DNA of 64,000 nt, taken from assembly GCA_025356475.1 (NCBI GenBank), contig JANXSX010000086.1, forward strand, positions 1 to 64,000. The letters are read 5' to 3'. A model generated the notes under the pieces. The model ran no database searches. It saw nothing but the letters and a program-made list of their open reading frames with translations, and was not told where the DNA came from. Source of the DNA: Isosphaeraceae bacterium. GTDB lineage: Bacteria; Planctomycetota; Planctomycetia; Isosphaerales; Isosphaeraceae. This document shows positions 4,452 to 11,205 of the stretch, piece by piece. How positions within the stretch are numbered: position 1 is the first letter of the stretch; each line of letters begins with the position of its first letter. Made by a program: the position numbers and the translations under genes.

Positions 4452-5654
4452 ATGCGTATTCTCATGGTGACTTCCTTCCCGATACCTGGTGAATACGACG
4501 GCACAGCAATGTTGCCGATCAAGATTCTCCGGGCATTGAAAACGCGAGGGATCGACGTCGTCGTGGCACATCTTCGCGCCAAGCCCCCATTTGGAAGAGC
4601 CTACCGTGGAGTCTTTGAAGGGACTCCTGTGTACACATTGCCACCTCGTCGCTGGGGGTCCGGCCTACGCCGTATTTCCCGGGATTATCCTTTCGATCTC
4701 GTACATGCTCAACATTATGGCGGTGCGACACGTGCATTTTTAACATGTAAGAAGTATCGTTGGCCACTTGTCTATGAGATCCACTCGCTTCTTGGTGACG
4801 AAGTTGAACGCGACAAGCTGGGCCGTGGGGTCCCGTTCCAGCTCACGCGAATCCTTGAGCAGTGGGTATGTCGATACGCTGCGGGGATCATTGTGCTCGG
4901 TCAAGGCGTCAAAGATGTACTCATCAATGAAAAAGGTATCGAAGAAGATAAAATTTCCATTATCTATCCGGGTATCGATTTAAAAGAATTTGCAAATCCT
5001 GCCCTCGCTACAGAAATTCCAGGGATCTCAACCTCGGATAAGGTGATCATGTATGTGGGAAGCTTGATTCACCCGAATCAAGGAGTACCGATTCTTATCG
5101 ACTCACTGGAACGGATCTTCCGAGCGATTCCTGAGTCGCGTTGCGTCTTGGTTGGTGGACCTCCTGAGGCGGGAGAGGCCTACAAGGATCGATTGGGACC
5201 GTTCCGGGATCGCTTGGTGATTGTGTCGGGAGCGACCCCCGATCAGGTCGTGAACCTCTGCCGGAGAGCCGATGTTCTTGTTCACCCTCGACTGGCCTGC
5301 CGTGAGAATTATTCGGTACAGAGCAAAATTGCCGTCTATCTTGCGTCGGAGCGACCGATTGTCGCGACTGATTTTGGGGACTATAAGGCCATCTTGGGTG
5401 AGACTGGGGCCGGACTCCTGACGGAGGTGTCCGCGCGGTCACTTTCGGACGGAATCATTGAAGTCTTAACCAATCCCGTCCTGGCGAAACGTCTGAGCGA
5501 GGCCACCGTACCTGTCGCTCGTGAACTATTCGGCATGGATCGAAATATCGATCGATATATCGATGTCTACAAGAAGGCTCTCACATCCTTCACCAGGACC
5601 CAAAACCTACGTCGCAAGAAACCGAGGCATAACAACGGCCCGGCAGAGAGTTAA
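4452..5654 (+). CDS. Glycosyltransferase, GT4 family
   Basis: This 400-residue protein has the two-domain GT-B layout. The N-terminal half starts MRILMVTSFPIPGEYDGTA and carries a FDLVHAQHYGG strand and a VYEIHSLLGDEVERD loop typical of GT4 acceptor domains. The C-terminal half has KVIMYVGSLIHPNQGVPILI and the EX7E-like region around ENYSVQSKIAVYLASERPIVA that binds the sugar nucleotide. An AGGGG sits before the ATG. A second GT4 gene follows 49 bases downstream, so the pair probably adds sugars to the same surface glycan. Donor and acceptor cannot be told. Confidence 0.9.
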   Translation: MRILMVTSFPIPGEYDGTAMLPIKILRALKTRGIDVVVAHLRAKPPFGRAYRGVFEGTPVYTLPPRRWGSGLRRISRDYPFDLVHAQHYGGATRAFLTCKKYRWPLVYEIHSLLGDEVERDKLGRGVPFQLTRILEQWVCRYAAGIIVLGQGVKDVLINEKGIEEDKISIIYPGIDLKEFANPALATEIPGISTSDKVIMYVGSLIHPNQGVPILIDSLERIFRAIPESRCVLVGGPPEAGEAYKDRLGPFRDRLVIVSGATPDQVVNLCRRADVLVHPRLACRENYSVQSKIAVYLASERPIVATDFGDYKAILGETGAGLLTEVSARSLSDGIIEVLTNPVLAKRLSEATVPVARELFGMDRNIDRYIDVYKKALTSFTRTQNLRRKKPRHNNGPAES

Positions 5655-5703
5655 TTACAGGAATCCGTCCACATCGTTTCATTGAGTTCGAGAGTCTACC
5701 CTG

Positions 5704-6876
5704 ATGATTCCGTTGCGGATTGTTCTGTTGATGATCGAGCCTCCCTTGCCGTTTGGTAATGCGGCGGCGAGATGGTTTTACGTGTTGATGAAAGAATTGG
5801 TGGCGAGGGGCCACACGGTGAAAGCCTTCGCGGTCTGCTCCAAACCAAGCGACCTCGAACTCGCGCGGGATCTCTTTCCGAGTCCCGAATATGATTTAAG
5901 GCTCTTCGAGCTCCCGCAACGTTCGGGATTGAAAGCGAAGCTTGAGACCTTGCGGCGGCCCTATTCGTACTTGTTCAGCCCCGAGCTCAAGGCCGAATTC
6001 CGCTCAGCATTGGCCGAGGGCTTTGACATCCTCCATCTTGAGCAGCTCTGGGCGGGTTGGCTCGGGCTCGAGCATCGCGACCGTGCTCTCGTGAACGTGT
6101 ACCACATGGTCGGTATCGATCTCGCTGAGTCGAAACCGAAATCGGTCCGTGAGTTCTTCGAGCGTGAGTTGATGTTTCGCACCGAACGACGACTCTTGAA
6201 AGAGTTCACGAACATTCGAGCGTGCTCACCACGCTTGGCCAGCGAAATTCAAGCGATCAACCCGAAAGCAACGGTCACGAGTGTCCCCGTCGGCCTGGAT
6301 TCGAGTCTCTATTCGTACATTCCGGATGACCGTCGTACGCGCGAGCCGATCCTGACCTTGATCGGCACGATGGGCTGGTATCCCGGTTACTCGGCGGCGA
6401 TCCGCCTCCTCACCCGACTCTGGCCGTCGATCAAGGCCCAAGTTCCCGACGCAAAGCTTCAGATCGTTGGCTGGTCGGCTCGCGAGAAACTGGCGGAATA
6501 TGTCCACCTTCCCGACGTTTCGATCCACGAGAATGTTCCCGATATTCAGCCTTACTTTGAACGGACCGGAGTGCTTCTCTATGCACCCAGCCGAGGGAGC
6601 GGGATGAAGGTCAAGGTTCTCGAAGCCATGGCGTTCGGGATCCCTTTTGTCACGACCAGCGAAGGGGTCGAAGGGATCCCCGCCCAGGATGGTATCCATG
6701 GCGGGATCTGCGAGGATGACGCAGGGTTGATCGAACGCACTGTTACTCTTCTGCGCGACACTGAACGGCAGAATCGGCAACGGCAGGCGGCCCGAGTGTT
6801 ACTCGAAACGCACTGTGGTCCCGCCCCCACGGTAGATGCCATTGAGGCCATCTACTCGCGGATGTTGGGCAATTGA
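5704..6876 (+). CDS. Glycosyltransferase, GT4 family
   Basis: This 390-residue GT-B protein opens with IVLLMIEPPLPFGNAAARWF, the glycine/proline loop common at the start of GT4 enzymes. The C-terminal domain shows TLIGTMGWYPGYSAAIRLL and the donor-site segment MKVKVLEAMAFGIPFVTTSE, where the Glu in VLEAMA matches the family's catalytic or ribose-binding Glu. It follows the first GT4 gene on the same strand and is probably cotranscribed. It ends 14 bases from the convergent Mur ligase gene. Confidence 0.9.
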   Translation: MIPLRIVLLMIEPPLPFGNAAARWFYVLMKELVARGHTVKAFAVCSKPSDLELARDLFPSPEYDLRLFELPQRSGLKAKLETLRRPYSYLFSPELKAEFRSALAEGFDILHLEQLWAGWLGLEHRDRALVNVYHMVGIDLAESKPKSVREFFERELMFRTERRLLKEFTNIRACSPRLASEIQAINPKATVTSVPVGLDSSLYSYIPDDRRTREPILTLIGTMGWYPGYSAAIRLLTRLWPSIKAQVPDAKLQIVGWSAREKLAEYVHLPDVSIHENVPDIQPYFERTGVLLYAPSRGSGMKVKVLEAMAFGIPFVTTSEGVEGIPAQDGIHGGICEDDAGLIERTVTLLRDTERQNRQRQAARVLLETHCGPAPTVDAIEAIYSRMLGN

Positions 6877-6890
6877 CATGAAGAATCGCG

Positions 6891-8405
6891 TCAGGCCGAG
6901 ACCAGCATTCGGACGGGTTGAGATTGAAGCCAATCTGTCGCGATCGCAGCATCGTCAAAGGTCGTGACACGATCGGCGTAGATCTGGACGGTTCTCCGGC
7001 CTTTACCCGCGATCAGCACCACGTCGCCAGGCTCTGCATTGGCGAGTGTGGTCTCGATCGCCAGGCGACGGTCGGGCTCGACCCGAGCTCGACCGGGGCG
7101 ACGAAGTCCGGATAGTAAATCATCAAAAATCTGGTTGGGGTCTTCCGAACGTGGATTGTCGGTCGTGAGGATCAGGTAGTCCGCTCCAGCCTCAACCGCT
7201 GCGGCCAGCGCACGACGGCTTGCCGGATCACCTAGTCCTTCCGCTCCGAAAACACAGTGGATTTTCGCCACATTCAAAGCCCGGAGAGTCGCAAGAGCTT
7301 GCGAAATGGCGGCTGGTGTCCGTGCGGAATCCACTCGGACGTCGAAGTTTTGGCCAGCAACCACGGACTCAAGGCGTCCGGAAAGCCGCGTGACCGACTC
7401 CAGCCCAAGTTTGACATCCTCGGCCGAGATCCCGCGAGCCCAGGCAAGTGCCGCTGCCGCGAGGGCATGGCGAACCGCAGATTCGCCGGTGAGACGAAGG
7501 GAGATTGCGAGTTCGCGACCGAAGCCGCGAAGCCGGATCTTCGAACCATCGGAGGACATTTGATCAATGACTGCCGAGATATCGGCTGGACGTTCGATTC
7601 CGTAGGCGACTCGAACGGAGGAGATGTTGACTGCCCCCATCAACTCGGCGTCAGGCTCGTCCGCATTGACGACCGCGATTCCACCTGACGCGATCCGCTT
7701 GAACATCCGAGCGGTCGAGCGGCGAAGTCCTTGGATAACTCTCGGATCTTGCGACGCATGAGATTCTAGGGTGGTGACCAGGGCGGCATCGAGTTCCAGG
7801 CCGTCAGCCGTTCGCTGTTCGAGGACTTCGGGCCCTAGCTCGATCACTGCCCCTGCGCACCCTGCATCAACCATCGCCCCGAGCATCCCCGCGAGGGATT
7901 CGGCATCGGGAGGTGTGAGCGTGGTTGGCCTGACAGTCTTGCCGTCAGACCAGCCGAGTGAGCCGACATTCCCAAATCGTACCCCGGCGGCTTCGAAAAT
8001 CGAGCGAACATACAGGCCGGTTGCAGTCTTGCCGTGAGTGCCAGTGACACCCACAACCCGCAGATGATCTGAGGGGTCGCCCGCCAATGCGTGACAGATT
8101 GCGGCATGCGCCGCCAATGCGTCGGGAACGATCACTTGCAGACGACCAGCCTCGGGGCAAGCCCGCTCGACAACAACCCCTGCGGCACCTCGGGCCATCG
8201 CCTGAGTGACCTGGGTGTGGCCATCCTCCGATCCCGTCCGAACAGCAACAAACAGTTCCCCTGGTTCGAGCTTGCTCGACTCGGTGGTGCAGCCTGAGAC
8301 TTCCCAGTCGGGACAGCCAACGAACTGTGCGTTGCGGAGTAGCCGGCGAAGGCTTACGGAGGGGATTCCACGCTGCGGGGATCGGTCAATAAACCAGCGT
8401 GCCAT
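6891..8405 (-). CDS. MurE-like Mur ligase, divergent
   Basis: This 504-residue protein has the Mur ligase order: an N-terminal UDP-binding domain, the ATP loop TGTHGKT at 121-127, a central domain, and a C-terminal domain with DNPRSEDP at 416-423. DNPR is the MurE signature for meso-diaminopimelate. Other core motifs have changed: the SSH substrate motif reads LGP in IELGPEVLEQ, the DHLDYH region is unrecognisable, the residue aligned with the carbamylated Lys (AKARLF in MurE) appears as STARMF, and DYAHTP reads DSARTP. It is therefore either a fast-evolving MurE or a paralogue with altered activity. The ATG at 8405 has GGAGGCGAAGG upstream. Confidence 0.85.
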   Translation of the reverse strand: MARWFIDRSPQRGIPSVSLRRLLRNAQFVGCPDWEVSGCTTESSKLEPGELFVAVRTGSEDGHTQVTQAMARGAAGVVVERACPEAGRLQVIVPDALAAHAAICHALAGDPSDHLRVVGVTGTHGKTATGLYVRSIFEAAGVRFGNVGSLGWSDGKTVRPTTLTPPDAESLAGMLGAMVDAGCAGAVIELGPEVLEQRTADGLELDAALVTTLESHASQDPRVIQGLRRSTARMFKRIASGGIAVVNADEPDAELMGAVNISSVRVAYGIERPADISAVIDQMSSDGSKIRLRGFGRELAISLRLTGESAVRHALAAAALAWARGISAEDVKLGLESVTRLSGRLESVVAGQNFDVRVDSARTPAAISQALATLRALNVAKIHCVFGAEGLGDPASRRALAAAVEAGADYLILTTDNPRSEDPNQIFDDLLSGLRRPGRARVEPDRRLAIETTLANAEPGDVVLIAGKGRRTVQIYADRVTTFDDAAIATDWLQSQPVRMLVSA

Positions 8406-8736: not shown

Positions 8737-11205
8737 TCAATGCCGGAAGAGGAACTCTTTGGAATTGATGAGCACCCAGCCCAGATCTTCCACGGCTTGC
8801 CTTCGATCGGTCGCGGCACTCAAGTGCTTGCCGGCAGCCGCGATCTCGGTGGAGTTCGGTTGGCGAGCGAGCGCGATCTCGTACAGCTCTCGCGTGATTT
8901 GCTCGGGGTTCTTATCACTCTTGGACAGAGCTGCCATCCGACCGGCATCGTCACGAAGTTTGCCGTTCACCGTGGCTCCGCCGATGAGCTGAAGCGCTTG
9001 CGAGAGGTTGGAGTCGCTTTCGCGCTCACATTCACAGGCTAGCTCACGAGCAGGGCGACCGAAGGTCTTGAGGAAGGGATTCTCCATCTTGCCATCGGGG
9101 AGCTGCGTCGCGCGGGTTCCCTTGGGTAAGCCATCGAAGGTGGTCGCCGACGCGGTTACGGTTGAGATTGCGTCCAGGAGGACCTCGGCAGGCAAGAGCT
9201 TGGTGAACGCGTGGGAGAAGTAGAGGTTGTCGTCCAGATTCAGCTCGTTGGTCCGAGCACTCAGACCATAGGTTCGGCTCAGCAGAATCGAGCGAACCAG
9301 CTTGCGAAGGTCAAAACCCTCTTTCACAAACTCAGCGGTCAATCCGTCCAATAACTCGTCGTTACAGGCGGGATTCGAGTCGCGAAAGTCATCGACAGGC
9401 TCGACAATCCCGCGCCCCATCAAATGGAACCAGACCCGGTTTACCAGGCTCTTGGCAAAGAAGGGATTTTCGCCCGAAGTCAGCCAAGAGGCGAGCTTTG
9501 TGCGACGGTCGCCGCCCGATTCTGGTTCCAGGATCGGACCGCCCAGAGCCTTCGGTTTCATCGCCTGGCCTGTCCGAGGCTGATTGACCTCGCCACCAAC
9601 GACGCTGAAGATCACTTCCTCGTCCGGCAGATTGCCCTTCTTTTGACGGACTCGCGAGAAGAACGCTGCGAATCCGTAATAGTCGTCTTGGGTCCAGCGT
9701 TCGAAGGGATGGTTGTGGCATTTGGCACACTGGATCCGCACACCCAGAAAGAGCTGAGCGGTGGTTTCGACCGAGTTCTCAGGGTCTCGACTGATTCGGT
9801 AGTAGTTCGCCGCAGGGTTGCCGAAGGTCGATCCGTTGGCGGTGAGAAGCTCGCGGACGAACTTATCGATCGGGGTGTTTTGCTCAAGATTGGCTTTGAT
9901 CCAGCGATTGAAGACGTATGTCCCCTTGGGCTGGATCAGGCGACCGTTCGACCTGAGGATGTCGGCGAACTTCAAGGTCCAGAAGTCGACGAACTCAACT
10001 CGCTTCATCAAGCCTTCGACCAGCTTAGTTTTGCGCTCTGGTGACTTGTCTTCCAAGAATCCATTGACTTCGGTGGGAGTCGGCAAGACCCCCAGGGTGT
10101 CGAGATAGAGCCGACGGATCAACTCAGAATCGGTCGCAGGCTCACTTGGGGCAACCCGCATCCGGTTCAGCTTATCAAAGACGGTCTTGTCGATGATGTT
10201 GTCTTGAGGAACGTCGGCGAGCTTAAAACCGGGAACATCGACCAAGTGGGTCAGACGAACGTTGGCGACAAGGTCGAGGTAGTGAGCAATAACGGCCACT
10301 TCACCTCGGATTTTGAAGCTGACATATCCATCGACATCGACATCGGCGATCTCGGGGTTCGATGAGTTGTAGTAGCAGATTGGCGTGACATCACGGCTGC
10401 TGCCATCCGCATAGTGAACGATCGCAACCGTTTGCTGGTTCTTTGCCGGAGCGTTCAGAACACGTGAGCCGGGAAGCAGTTCCAGACGAACTGCAGCCGC
10501 AACACCCTTGTCGTCTTTCGCCCCTTCGGCGATCCAGTCGCGAAGGAATTCATAGGCCTTGCTGTTCCGAATCAGCCGAAGGCCCCCCTCGTGCGGAAGC
10601 TCTCCGAGAGGTTTCTGGAGAATCAGGCTCGACTCAGCTGCAAAGCTATTGATGCGACGACCGGAGACTTCTCGAGAAAGCGTGGTGTAGTCCTGGTCGG
10701 GGAGATATCCGCGAAGGCTAAGCTTAAACCCCCCTTTGCCAGTCGGCGTACCGTGGCACGCTCCCATGTTGCAGTTGGCCTGGCTAAAGGAGGGTATGAC
10801 ATCGTGCCGGAAGCTCACCGGGGCGGGAGCCTCCATCGCGGACACTTTTACCGTGGTTTTGGCCTCGATACTCCCGCTTCGAGCCACGATGGTTGCGGTC
10901 CCATTGGCCTTGGGGATGACCTGACCCTTTGGAGAGACGACCGCGATCGTCGGGTCGAGGCTGACCCACTCAACGGTCCGAGTGAGGTCTCGAATGGTCC
11001 CATCCTGATAATCGGCGGTGGCGATCAATTGCCGAGTCGAGCGGCGACCAATCAGGTTCGACTCCGCAGGAGCGATCACGACCGATTTAGGGGTAGCGAT
11101 CGGCTCGTCAGCAGCCGGAGCGAATGTCGACAGAAGCACGACGACCAACGGGGTCGACAGGTGCAATTTTGCCCAATAGCGATGGGCAATCCCTGGAACG
11201 TGCAT
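8737..11205 (-). CDS. DUF1549/DUF1553 protein with Big_2 repeats
   Basis: This 822-residue protein starts at ATG 11205 (GAGGAG upstream) with a signal peptide ending near TFAPAADE. Two Ig-like Big_2 modules are visible, around residues 40-120 (GQVIPKANGTATIVARSG) and 235-310 (DVDGYVSFKIRGEVAVIAHY). Between them lies FSQANCNMGACHGTPTGKGG, a CxxxxCH heme-like motif of planctomycete cytochrome regions. The rest matches DUF1549 (ELIRRLYLDTLGVLPTPTEV) and DUF1553 (NPFFAKSLVNRVWFHLMGRG), with CAKCHNHPFERW between them. Such proteins are abundant and exported in planctomycetes. Their function is unproven; sulfatase or polysaccharide use is often suggested by gene context. Confidence 0.93.
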   Translation of the reverse strand: MHVPGIAHRYWAKLHLSTPLVVVLLSTFAPAADEPIATPKSVVIAPAESNLIGRRSTRQLIATADYQDGTIRDLTRTVEWVSLDPTIAVVSPKGQVIPKANGTATIVARSGSIEAKTTVKVSAMEAPAPVSFRHDVIPSFSQANCNMGACHGTPTGKGGFKLSLRGYLPDQDYTTLSREVSGRRINSFAAESSLILQKPLGELPHEGGLRLIRNSKAYEFLRDWIAEGAKDDKGVAAAVRLELLPGSRVLNAPAKNQQTVAIVHYADGSSRDVTPICYYNSSNPEIADVDVDGYVSFKIRGEVAVIAHYLDLVANVRLTHLVDVPGFKLADVPQDNIIDKTVFDKLNRMRVAPSEPATDSELIRRLYLDTLGVLPTPTEVNGFLEDKSPERKTKLVEGLMKRVEFVDFWTLKFADILRSNGRLIQPKGTYVFNRWIKANLEQNTPIDKFVRELLTANGSTFGNPAANYYRISRDPENSVETTAQLFLGVRIQCAKCHNHPFERWTQDDYYGFAAFFSRVRQKKGNLPDEEVIFSVVGGEVNQPRTGQAMKPKALGGPILEPESGGDRRTKLASWLTSGENPFFAKSLVNRVWFHLMGRGIVEPVDDFRDSNPACNDELLDGLTAEFVKEGFDLRKLVRSILLSRTYGLSARTNELNLDDNLYFSHAFTKLLPAEVLLDAISTVTASATTFDGLPKGTRATQLPDGKMENPFLKTFGRPARELACECERESDSNLSQALQLIGGATVNGKLRDDAGRMAALSKSDKNPEQITRELYEIALARQPNSTEIAAAGKHLSAATDRRQAVEDLGWVLINSKEFLFRH

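Follow-up and report, generated by a model that had tools for sequence, protein, structure and literature searches.

Previously, the case for peptidoglycan (PG) synthesis in planctomycetes has been made in part from lists of PG genes. In the portions of the studies available to us, murB is described as very conserved and murE as semi-conserved in Planctomycetia, and the PG genes of Planctopirus limnophila as non-essential (Rivas-Marin 2023, PMC10632474), while for Paludisphaera borealis, murB, murE and mraY are named among 'several but not all' PG genes (Ivanova 2017, PMC5352709). MurNAc and diaminopimelate (DAP) were found in species outside Isosphaeraceae, in wall chemistry that included P. 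limnophilus and G. obscuriglobus (Jeske 2015, PMC4432640). PG synthesis was judged probable in most or all PVC bacteria (Rivas-Marin 2016, PMC5147048), which counts against the explanation favored below. The genome paper of Isosphaera pallida, citing Giovannoni 1987, gives muramic acid and DAP as absent from the wall (PMC3072084). In the accessible portions of the open-licence planctomycete PG literature, no mention was found of MurE active-site loss, of an eroded MurC or of selection. In flowering plants, the MurE homologue PAP11 is described as belonging to the plastid RNA polymerase as a peripheral subunit (PMC12681378, PMC9456514); plant MurE homologues keep many catalytic residues, and the consulted part of one account leaves undecided whether they are catalytic or scaffold-only (PMC12681378).

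Here, we analyzed a window of 64,000 nucleotides from an Isosphaeraceae bacterium, the minus strand of which encodes a MurE-derived protein, referred to as MurE' hereafter, at 6891..8405 (a single open frame of 504 codons, 504 aa, start MARWF). The NCBIfam model TIGR01085 (murE) gave the protein 281.4 bits, above the curated cut-off of 257.3, and automatic annotation could therefore well label it MurE. Using Pfam, Mur_ligase_M and Mur_ligase_C were matched and Mur_ligase was marginally under its cut-off. The nearest PDB sequences were MurE-MurF 8f5d (best) and PAP11 (second and third), with the MurEs of T. maritima and M. tuberculosis also present, and identity to solved MurEs was 24-32%. The AlphaFold2 model, which was built from an alignment of 35 sequences and has a mean pLDDT of 90.7, is a complete three-domain MurE fold retained over the whole length of the protein: comparison with T. 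maritima MurE (4bub, 478 residues) gave Z 41.1 with 470 residues aligned and that with plant PAP11 gave Z 38.9, and Foldseek agreed.

All parts of the protein described here lie on the minus strand. The N-terminal tail MARWFIDRSPQR (8370..8405, residues 1-12) has pLDDT <50 and yet is conserved, residues R3, W4, F5, D7 and R8 being kept in 25-26 of 27 orthologues; we infer that it is a candidate docking motif. It is followed by an N-terminal UDP-substrate type domain (8061..8360, residues 16-115), which is the most conserved part in the family. The middle ATPase-type domain (7386..8060, residues 116-340) keeps a P-loop here that is eroded in relatives, has lost its catalytic motifs and is the least conserved. 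The C-terminal domain (6921..7385, residues 341-495) keeps GRLE and DNPRSEDP and has changed at DYAHTP, GCGGDR and GKGHE. At about residue 160-165, the site of the TTP motif in canonical MurE, a Gly/Pro-rich insert of variable length was observed in several f1 orthologues (loci L059, L063-L066, L070, L073 and L074).

An earlier note on this DNA had described a MurE-like ligase in which the ATP loop TGTHGKT and the DAP signature DNPRSEDP were kept and SSH, DHLDYH, the carbamylated-lysine segment and DYAHTP were altered. Alignment of the window protein with 13 canonical MurEs, that of E. coli among them, confirmed both parts of this description, and the erosion was found to extend further, into the DAP site. 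The P-loop reads TGTHGKT (canonical TGTNGKT), and GRLE, DNPRSEDP, the Mg-type Glu and the P-loop Lys and Thr are all retained. Relative to E. coli MurE, EVSSH has become ELGPE, NLSRDHLDYH has become TLESHASQDP and DYAHTP has become DSARTP, and the carbamylated-lysine segment YEAAKWLL now reads LRRSTARM, with Lys replaced by Thr. Two further changes, absent from the earlier note, are those of GCGGDRDKGKRP in canonical MurE to GAEGLGDPASRR and of GKGHE to GKGRR, which means that two more residues of the MurE DAP site have been lost, Arg389 and Glu468 (E. coli numbering). Within the DAP-binding set (GxGGxR, DNPR, GKGHE), DNPR is thus retained, and the GGDR Arg and GKGHE Glu are gone. The window protein has 6 of the 12 core residues; all 12 are present in 12 of the 13 canonical sequences, and 11 in G039. 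In MurE, the residues lost here serve in binding of metal-ATP, in formation of the acyl-phosphate and in holding diaminopimelate. Judging from its sequence, the window protein most likely no longer ligates DAP.

The survey covered 59 related genomes, including 37 of family f1, which was taken as Isosphaeraceae. MurE' was found in 27 of these 37 genomes, and in 32 of 45 in a wider f1 set; the motif counts below cover 27 copies, and the five further copies were counted for stops only. No histidine was retained at the SSH, DYH or DYAH columns (0/27 each), and the DH-His was retained in 2/27. A displaced histidine was sought 6 columns on either side of the motif columns in the 27 orthologues and no consistent one was found; the window protein has a single His one position ahead of the DH histidine, which is not common to orthologues. 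Chance and a plain alignment slip were thus rejected as causes of the changed motifs. The earlier note had named an alignment showing these motifs in their correct form as an outcome that would overturn its reading, and this did not occur. The GGDR-Arg was kept in 1/27 and the GKGHE-Glu in 2/27. The P-loop Lys was retained in 14/27 and lost in 13/27, the P-loop Thr was lost in 10/27, and this decay differs between genera of Isosphaeraceae. The carbamyl-Lys column has Lys in 12/27 and has lost it in 15/27, the window protein included. The Mg-type Glu was present in 23/27, the DNPR Asn and Arg in 24/27 each and the Glu of GRxE in 27/27.

It had been suggested in the earlier note that an altered Mur ligase could perform a different amide ligation. 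In this case, MurE' would be an active ATP-dependent ligase on a new substrate, binding ATP and an acidic amino-acid-like group and making a different amide. The TGTHGKT loop, Mg-type Glu, GRLE and DNPRSEDP of the window protein, as well as the well-kept DNPR Asn and Arg among orthologues, are consistent with such an activity. However, the SSH, DYH and DYAH histidines are gone from every copy and the DH-His from 25/27, the P-loop Lys and Thr and the carbamyl-Lys have each been lost in a good number of copies, two DAP-site residues have disappeared and conservation is lowest in the ATPase domain, which makes a new ligation quite unlikely in f1.

A Mur ligase tree, which the earlier note had proposed, was built and midpoint-rooted; the placement of families f5 and f7 in it depends on long branches. 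All 27 MurE' sequences formed a single clade with a long stem (support 100/100). The N-terminal segment SLRRLLPxAxFVGCxD is common to MurE' and the canonical MurEs of the same class, and with the single clade it makes MurE' look like a vertically inherited MurE. Seven loci came from named genomes, four of them close relatives (Isosphaeraceae, Singulisphaera, Paludisphaera soli and a 'Planctomycetaceae' MAG) and the remaining three from Pseudomonas (two) and Prochlorococcus. Genera without MurE' were g5 and g8 (four genomes each) and g11, g12 and g20 (one each). In G010, which is without MurE', a 452-aa Mur-ligase-like protein (G010:C70:10951-11508; 82 bits to Mur_ligase_M) was observed among the matches listed.

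The supposition that the window gene is a second MurE, a paralogue beside a canonical murE, did not hold. The search for a canonical murE in the own genome of the window, which is 99.98% complete, found no MurE other than the window gene, and both forms occurred together in only 1/45 family genomes, G002, on a suspect contig. There, a MurE in which none of the 12 core residues is missing (L051, G002:C163) shares its contig with one of three G002 matches to a penicillin-binding protein (PBP), and an eroded MurE is also in the bin. The canonical MurE of G002 falls, with weak support (84/40), beside the sequences of Prochlorococcus, Pseudomonas and E. coli, GC content (0.650 vs 0.646) is uninformative, and the bin has a completeness of 85% and a contamination of 5%. 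We treat this MurE as suspect, a contaminant or a transfer, rather than as disproved.

To characterize the partners of MurE', profile searches were carried out for Mur ligases, MurA, MurB, MurG, MraY and PBP; controls were matched in every family search, including all ten named bacteria. The own genome gave no MurD, MurF, MurA, MurG, canonical MraY or PBP transpeptidase in these searches. Its closest protein to MurA was AroA (442 bits, cut-off 287), the closest to MraY were two WecA-like transferases and the closest to MurG was a diglucosyl-diacylglycerol-synthase-like protein. The Mur-ligase middle domain PF08245 occurred three times, in MurE', cyanophycin synthetase and FolC (the latter two named by profile), and the C-terminal Mur-ligase domain in one extra protein over cut-off, which is MurC-like. 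The C-terminal domain model was applied to 10 f1 genomes only, in which the matches over cut-off were MurE', MurC' (the eroded MurC described below), FolC and cyanophycin-synthetase-sized proteins, as judged by place and length; the PF08245 figures over the 59 genomes are those among the matches listed, and ligases eroded past both domain models could escape detection, as PF08245 missed MurC'.

Across the sample, PBP transpeptidase was detected in 9/59 genomes, namely 7/7 of f2, the single f6 genome and G002, the last being the one f1 genome of 37. MraY scored at most 65 bits in f1 vs 297-355 in f2/f6 (8/59 genomes over 290 bits). MurG scored at most 52 bits in f1 vs 192-270 in f2/f6 (8/59 genomes over 190 bits), in a search where only 9/14 controls reached the curated cut-off and matches in archaea also occurred, so that weak scores are hardly informative. 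MurA scored at most 84 bits in f1, with at most one match per genome, vs 385-526 in f2, f6 and G039, which account for the 9/59 genomes over 380 bits. Thus, the known PG precursor and cross-linking enzymes appear to be missing from the Isosphaeraceae host of MurE', insofar as such profiles did not find them. A separate arrangement was observed in G039 (G039:C1:6282595-6295593, part of which is covered by L049), where MurA, MurB, MurE and more Mur ligases are clustered and matches to MurG, canonical MraY and PBP are lacking; G039 perhaps has only the soluble half of the PG pathway.

On the other hand, MurB was present in 57/59 genomes and 35/37 of f1. In the own genome, an apparently intact murB lies on a contig other than that of the window (G000:C220, L080:6156-7037, plus strand), immediately downstream of and overlapping an eroded MurC-like frame, MurC' (G000:C220, L080:4943-6199, plus strand). 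The possibility that MurC was wholly absent from the own genome was rejected when this frame was found, from the murB loci and then by profile. Its P-loop has changed from GTHGKST to GDRSSGL, other active-site motifs are altered too, the murC profile gives 143 bits (cut-off 335), and the middle domain is no longer recognized by Pfam. The MurC'-murB pair recurred in seven more of 20 murB loci inspected, and a profile from eight MurC' sequences found MurC' in 11/37 f1 genomes, 10 of which also have MurE'. In f1, MurB keeps the FAD motifs and, with the exception of G019 among the aligned sequences, the FKNP-segment cysteine, a position that is changed in the aligned MurB of f5, f3 and f7.

The state of MurB raises the question of whether MurE' and MurB, with MurC' where present, still make a wall together with unrecognized enzymes through a cryptic, altered precursor pathway. 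The kept MurB motifs and a strong constraint on MurB (dN/dS 0.02 and 0.08) point in this direction, and one study states, in the part available, that essential PG genes are present in all analyzed planctomycetes (Jeske 2015, PMC4432640). However, the weak MurA-like matches in the 37 f1 genomes leave MurB with no known source of its substrate, canonical MurG and MraY and, bar G002, PBP were not found in f1, and the I. pallida wall was reported without muramic acid or DAP (PMC3072084, as far as the relevant part of that paper goes). We therefore consider a cryptic wall pathway very unlikely.

Selection on MurE' was estimated by the Nei-Gojobori method for 27 pairs over 65% identity, which are non-independent and whose absolute values are rough because of GC bias. 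The dN/dS was 0.079-0.461 with a median of 0.25; for comparison, three pairs of canonical MurEs from f2 gave 0.111, 0.232 and 0.128. When two genome pairs were compared gene by gene, values were 0.096 and 0.172 for MurE', 0.21 and 0.274 for MurC', and 0.02 and 0.081 for MurB. Since all pairs are well below 1 and the median lies at 0.25 vs 0.11-0.23 for the canonical pairs, MurE' is under purifying selection, perhaps somewhat relaxed. No internal stop was found in any of the 32 copies of the wider f1 set; the frames being unbroken and dN/dS low, the possibility of a pseudogene was rejected. With regard to domains, mean pairwise identity of MurE' among 15 f1 genomes of different genera was 0.62, 0.43 and 0.49 for the N-terminal, ATPase and C-terminal domains, compared with 0.51, 0.44 and 0.52 in seven canonical planctomycete MurEs, which implies that constraint has moved to the N-terminal domain. 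We also considered that the N-terminal domain might be best conserved in both dead ligases; this holds for MurE' and fails for MurC', whose mean pairwise identity within f1 was 0.45, 0.52 and 0.59 for the N-terminal, middle and C-terminal domains. Domain 1 of MurC' is the part nearest to canonical MurC, nothing more.

The same data bear on slow relic decay, in which mur genes would have been lost singly (MurD/F/A/G, MraY and the PBPs, then MurC, MurE and, last, MurB) and MurE' would have little or no function. Retention is indeed nested (MurB 35/37, MurE' 27/37, MurC' 11/37, with MurE' in nearly all MurC' genomes), whole genera are without MurE', P-loop decay is uneven between genera, and many MurE' pairs exceed the three canonical dN/dS values, which, together with the 10/37 genomes without the gene, would suit such decay. 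However, a functionless gene of 500 codons at such synonymous distances should show stops and frameshifts; all 32 copies are stop-free and all 27 pairs are well below 1. Relic decay is therefore unlikely in our view.

The surroundings of the gene were also compared with 22 other loci, some of which are truncated or duplicates of one genome. The upstream neighbor of MurE' encodes a PSCyt2/PSD1 (DUF1549/DUF1553) protein with a Big_2 domain (8737..11205, minus strand), and this pairing recurs in 5 of the 22 (G008, G026, G020, G001 and G017; 71-76% identity). Among the window genes tried, the PSD1 neighbor alone recurs adjacent to MurE', which suggests a conserved operon only weakly. Two GT4-type glycosyltransferases (window 4452-6876, plus strand) are convergent on the MurE' gene and were unmatched in these loci.

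Taken together, MurE' is probably a non-catalytic MurE descendant, the sole murE left in a host without known PG enzymes, which is kept by selection and reused for binding or as a scaffold. Under this explanation, the gene, whose descent from MurE is established, would be the one remaining murE of its Isosphaeraceae host; with the residues for metal-ATP, acyl-phosphate and diaminopimelate lost, ligation of DAP would most likely be gone, and purifying selection would retain MurE' as a non-catalytic protein, alongside MurB and, in about one third of the family, MurC'. Because the N-terminal substrate-holding domain and the low-order N-terminal tail are best conserved, it may act as a scaffold or sensor that binds protein partners or a ligand of UDP-sugar or muramyl-like type. 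For the window protein, which has kept the P-loop Lys and Thr, the Mg-type Glu and DNPR, binding of ATP or some unusual reaction is possible, and some branch chemistry may survive, considering that MurB is widespread in f1 and that its active site appears intact in most of the aligned sequences. More tentatively, it is quite possible that Isosphaeraceae, as free-living bacteria without PG, co-opted MurB jointly with a dead MurC and a dead MurE for a new role unrelated to the wall, such as a UDP-sugar sensor or scaffold organizing envelope growth and budding, and that a second planctomycete family re-tooled MurE in the opposite direction, with the ATPase site mostly retained and the DAP site given up.

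The bearing on the planctomycete peptidoglycan question that the earlier note had seen in a MurE-like protein with altered central motifs is upheld. The presence of a gene is no sign of a normal wall in planctomycetes when, as in MurE', the catalytic residues are eroded; a murE that passes the NCBI family cut-off without an active site, most of its partners not being found, implies that gene names alone mislead. If the proposed explanation is true, the free-living bacteria of one family may do without PG, the shells of its enzymes being retained by selection, and two old questions become directly testable: which planctomycetes truly possess a wall, and what function a MurE fold can have in the absence of catalysis.

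Compared with known systems, MurE' resembles canonical MurE in its three-domain fold, its TIGR01085 score over cut-off and the planctomycete N-terminal segment, but differs by the lost active-site His, carbamyl-Lys, SSH, DYAH, GCGGDR and GKGHE, by partner enzymes that were not found and by a conserved N-terminal tail of its own. MurC' of the own genome is a further Mur ligase kept with its frame open, both its P-loop and its active site being eroded. PAP11 is likewise a MurE homologue retained where the PG pathway is incomplete, and a binding or scaffold role of MurE' would, by analogy, parallel that of PAP11 in the plastid RNA polymerase; however, PAP11 belongs to a separate lineage, many catalytic residues are kept in plant homologues, and for MurE' there is no sign of a link to RNA polymerase.

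Within planctomycetes, no MurE match was found in the six genomes of f3 at E 1e-5, and the four f5 genomes (G040, G049, G057 and G054; loci L054, L044, L045 and L052) have MurE without PBP or canonical MurA, MurG and MraY. The f5 MurE is similar to MurE' in its missing pathway partners and the loss of the SSH-His (0/4). It retains the P-loop Lys in 4/4, the DH-His, DYH-His, carbamyl-Lys and GKGHE-Glu in 3/4 each and the DYAH-His in 2/4, and the DNPR Asp, Asn and Arg and the GGDR Arg are gone in 4/4. Because different residues were lost, the f5 erosion looks separate from and complementary to that of f1, which we infer from the residues, the tree giving no proof. Thus, the erosion in f5 is opposite to that of MurE', with the ATPase residues mostly kept and the DAP motif gone, and an altered amide ligation fits the f5 MurE better than the MurE' of f1.
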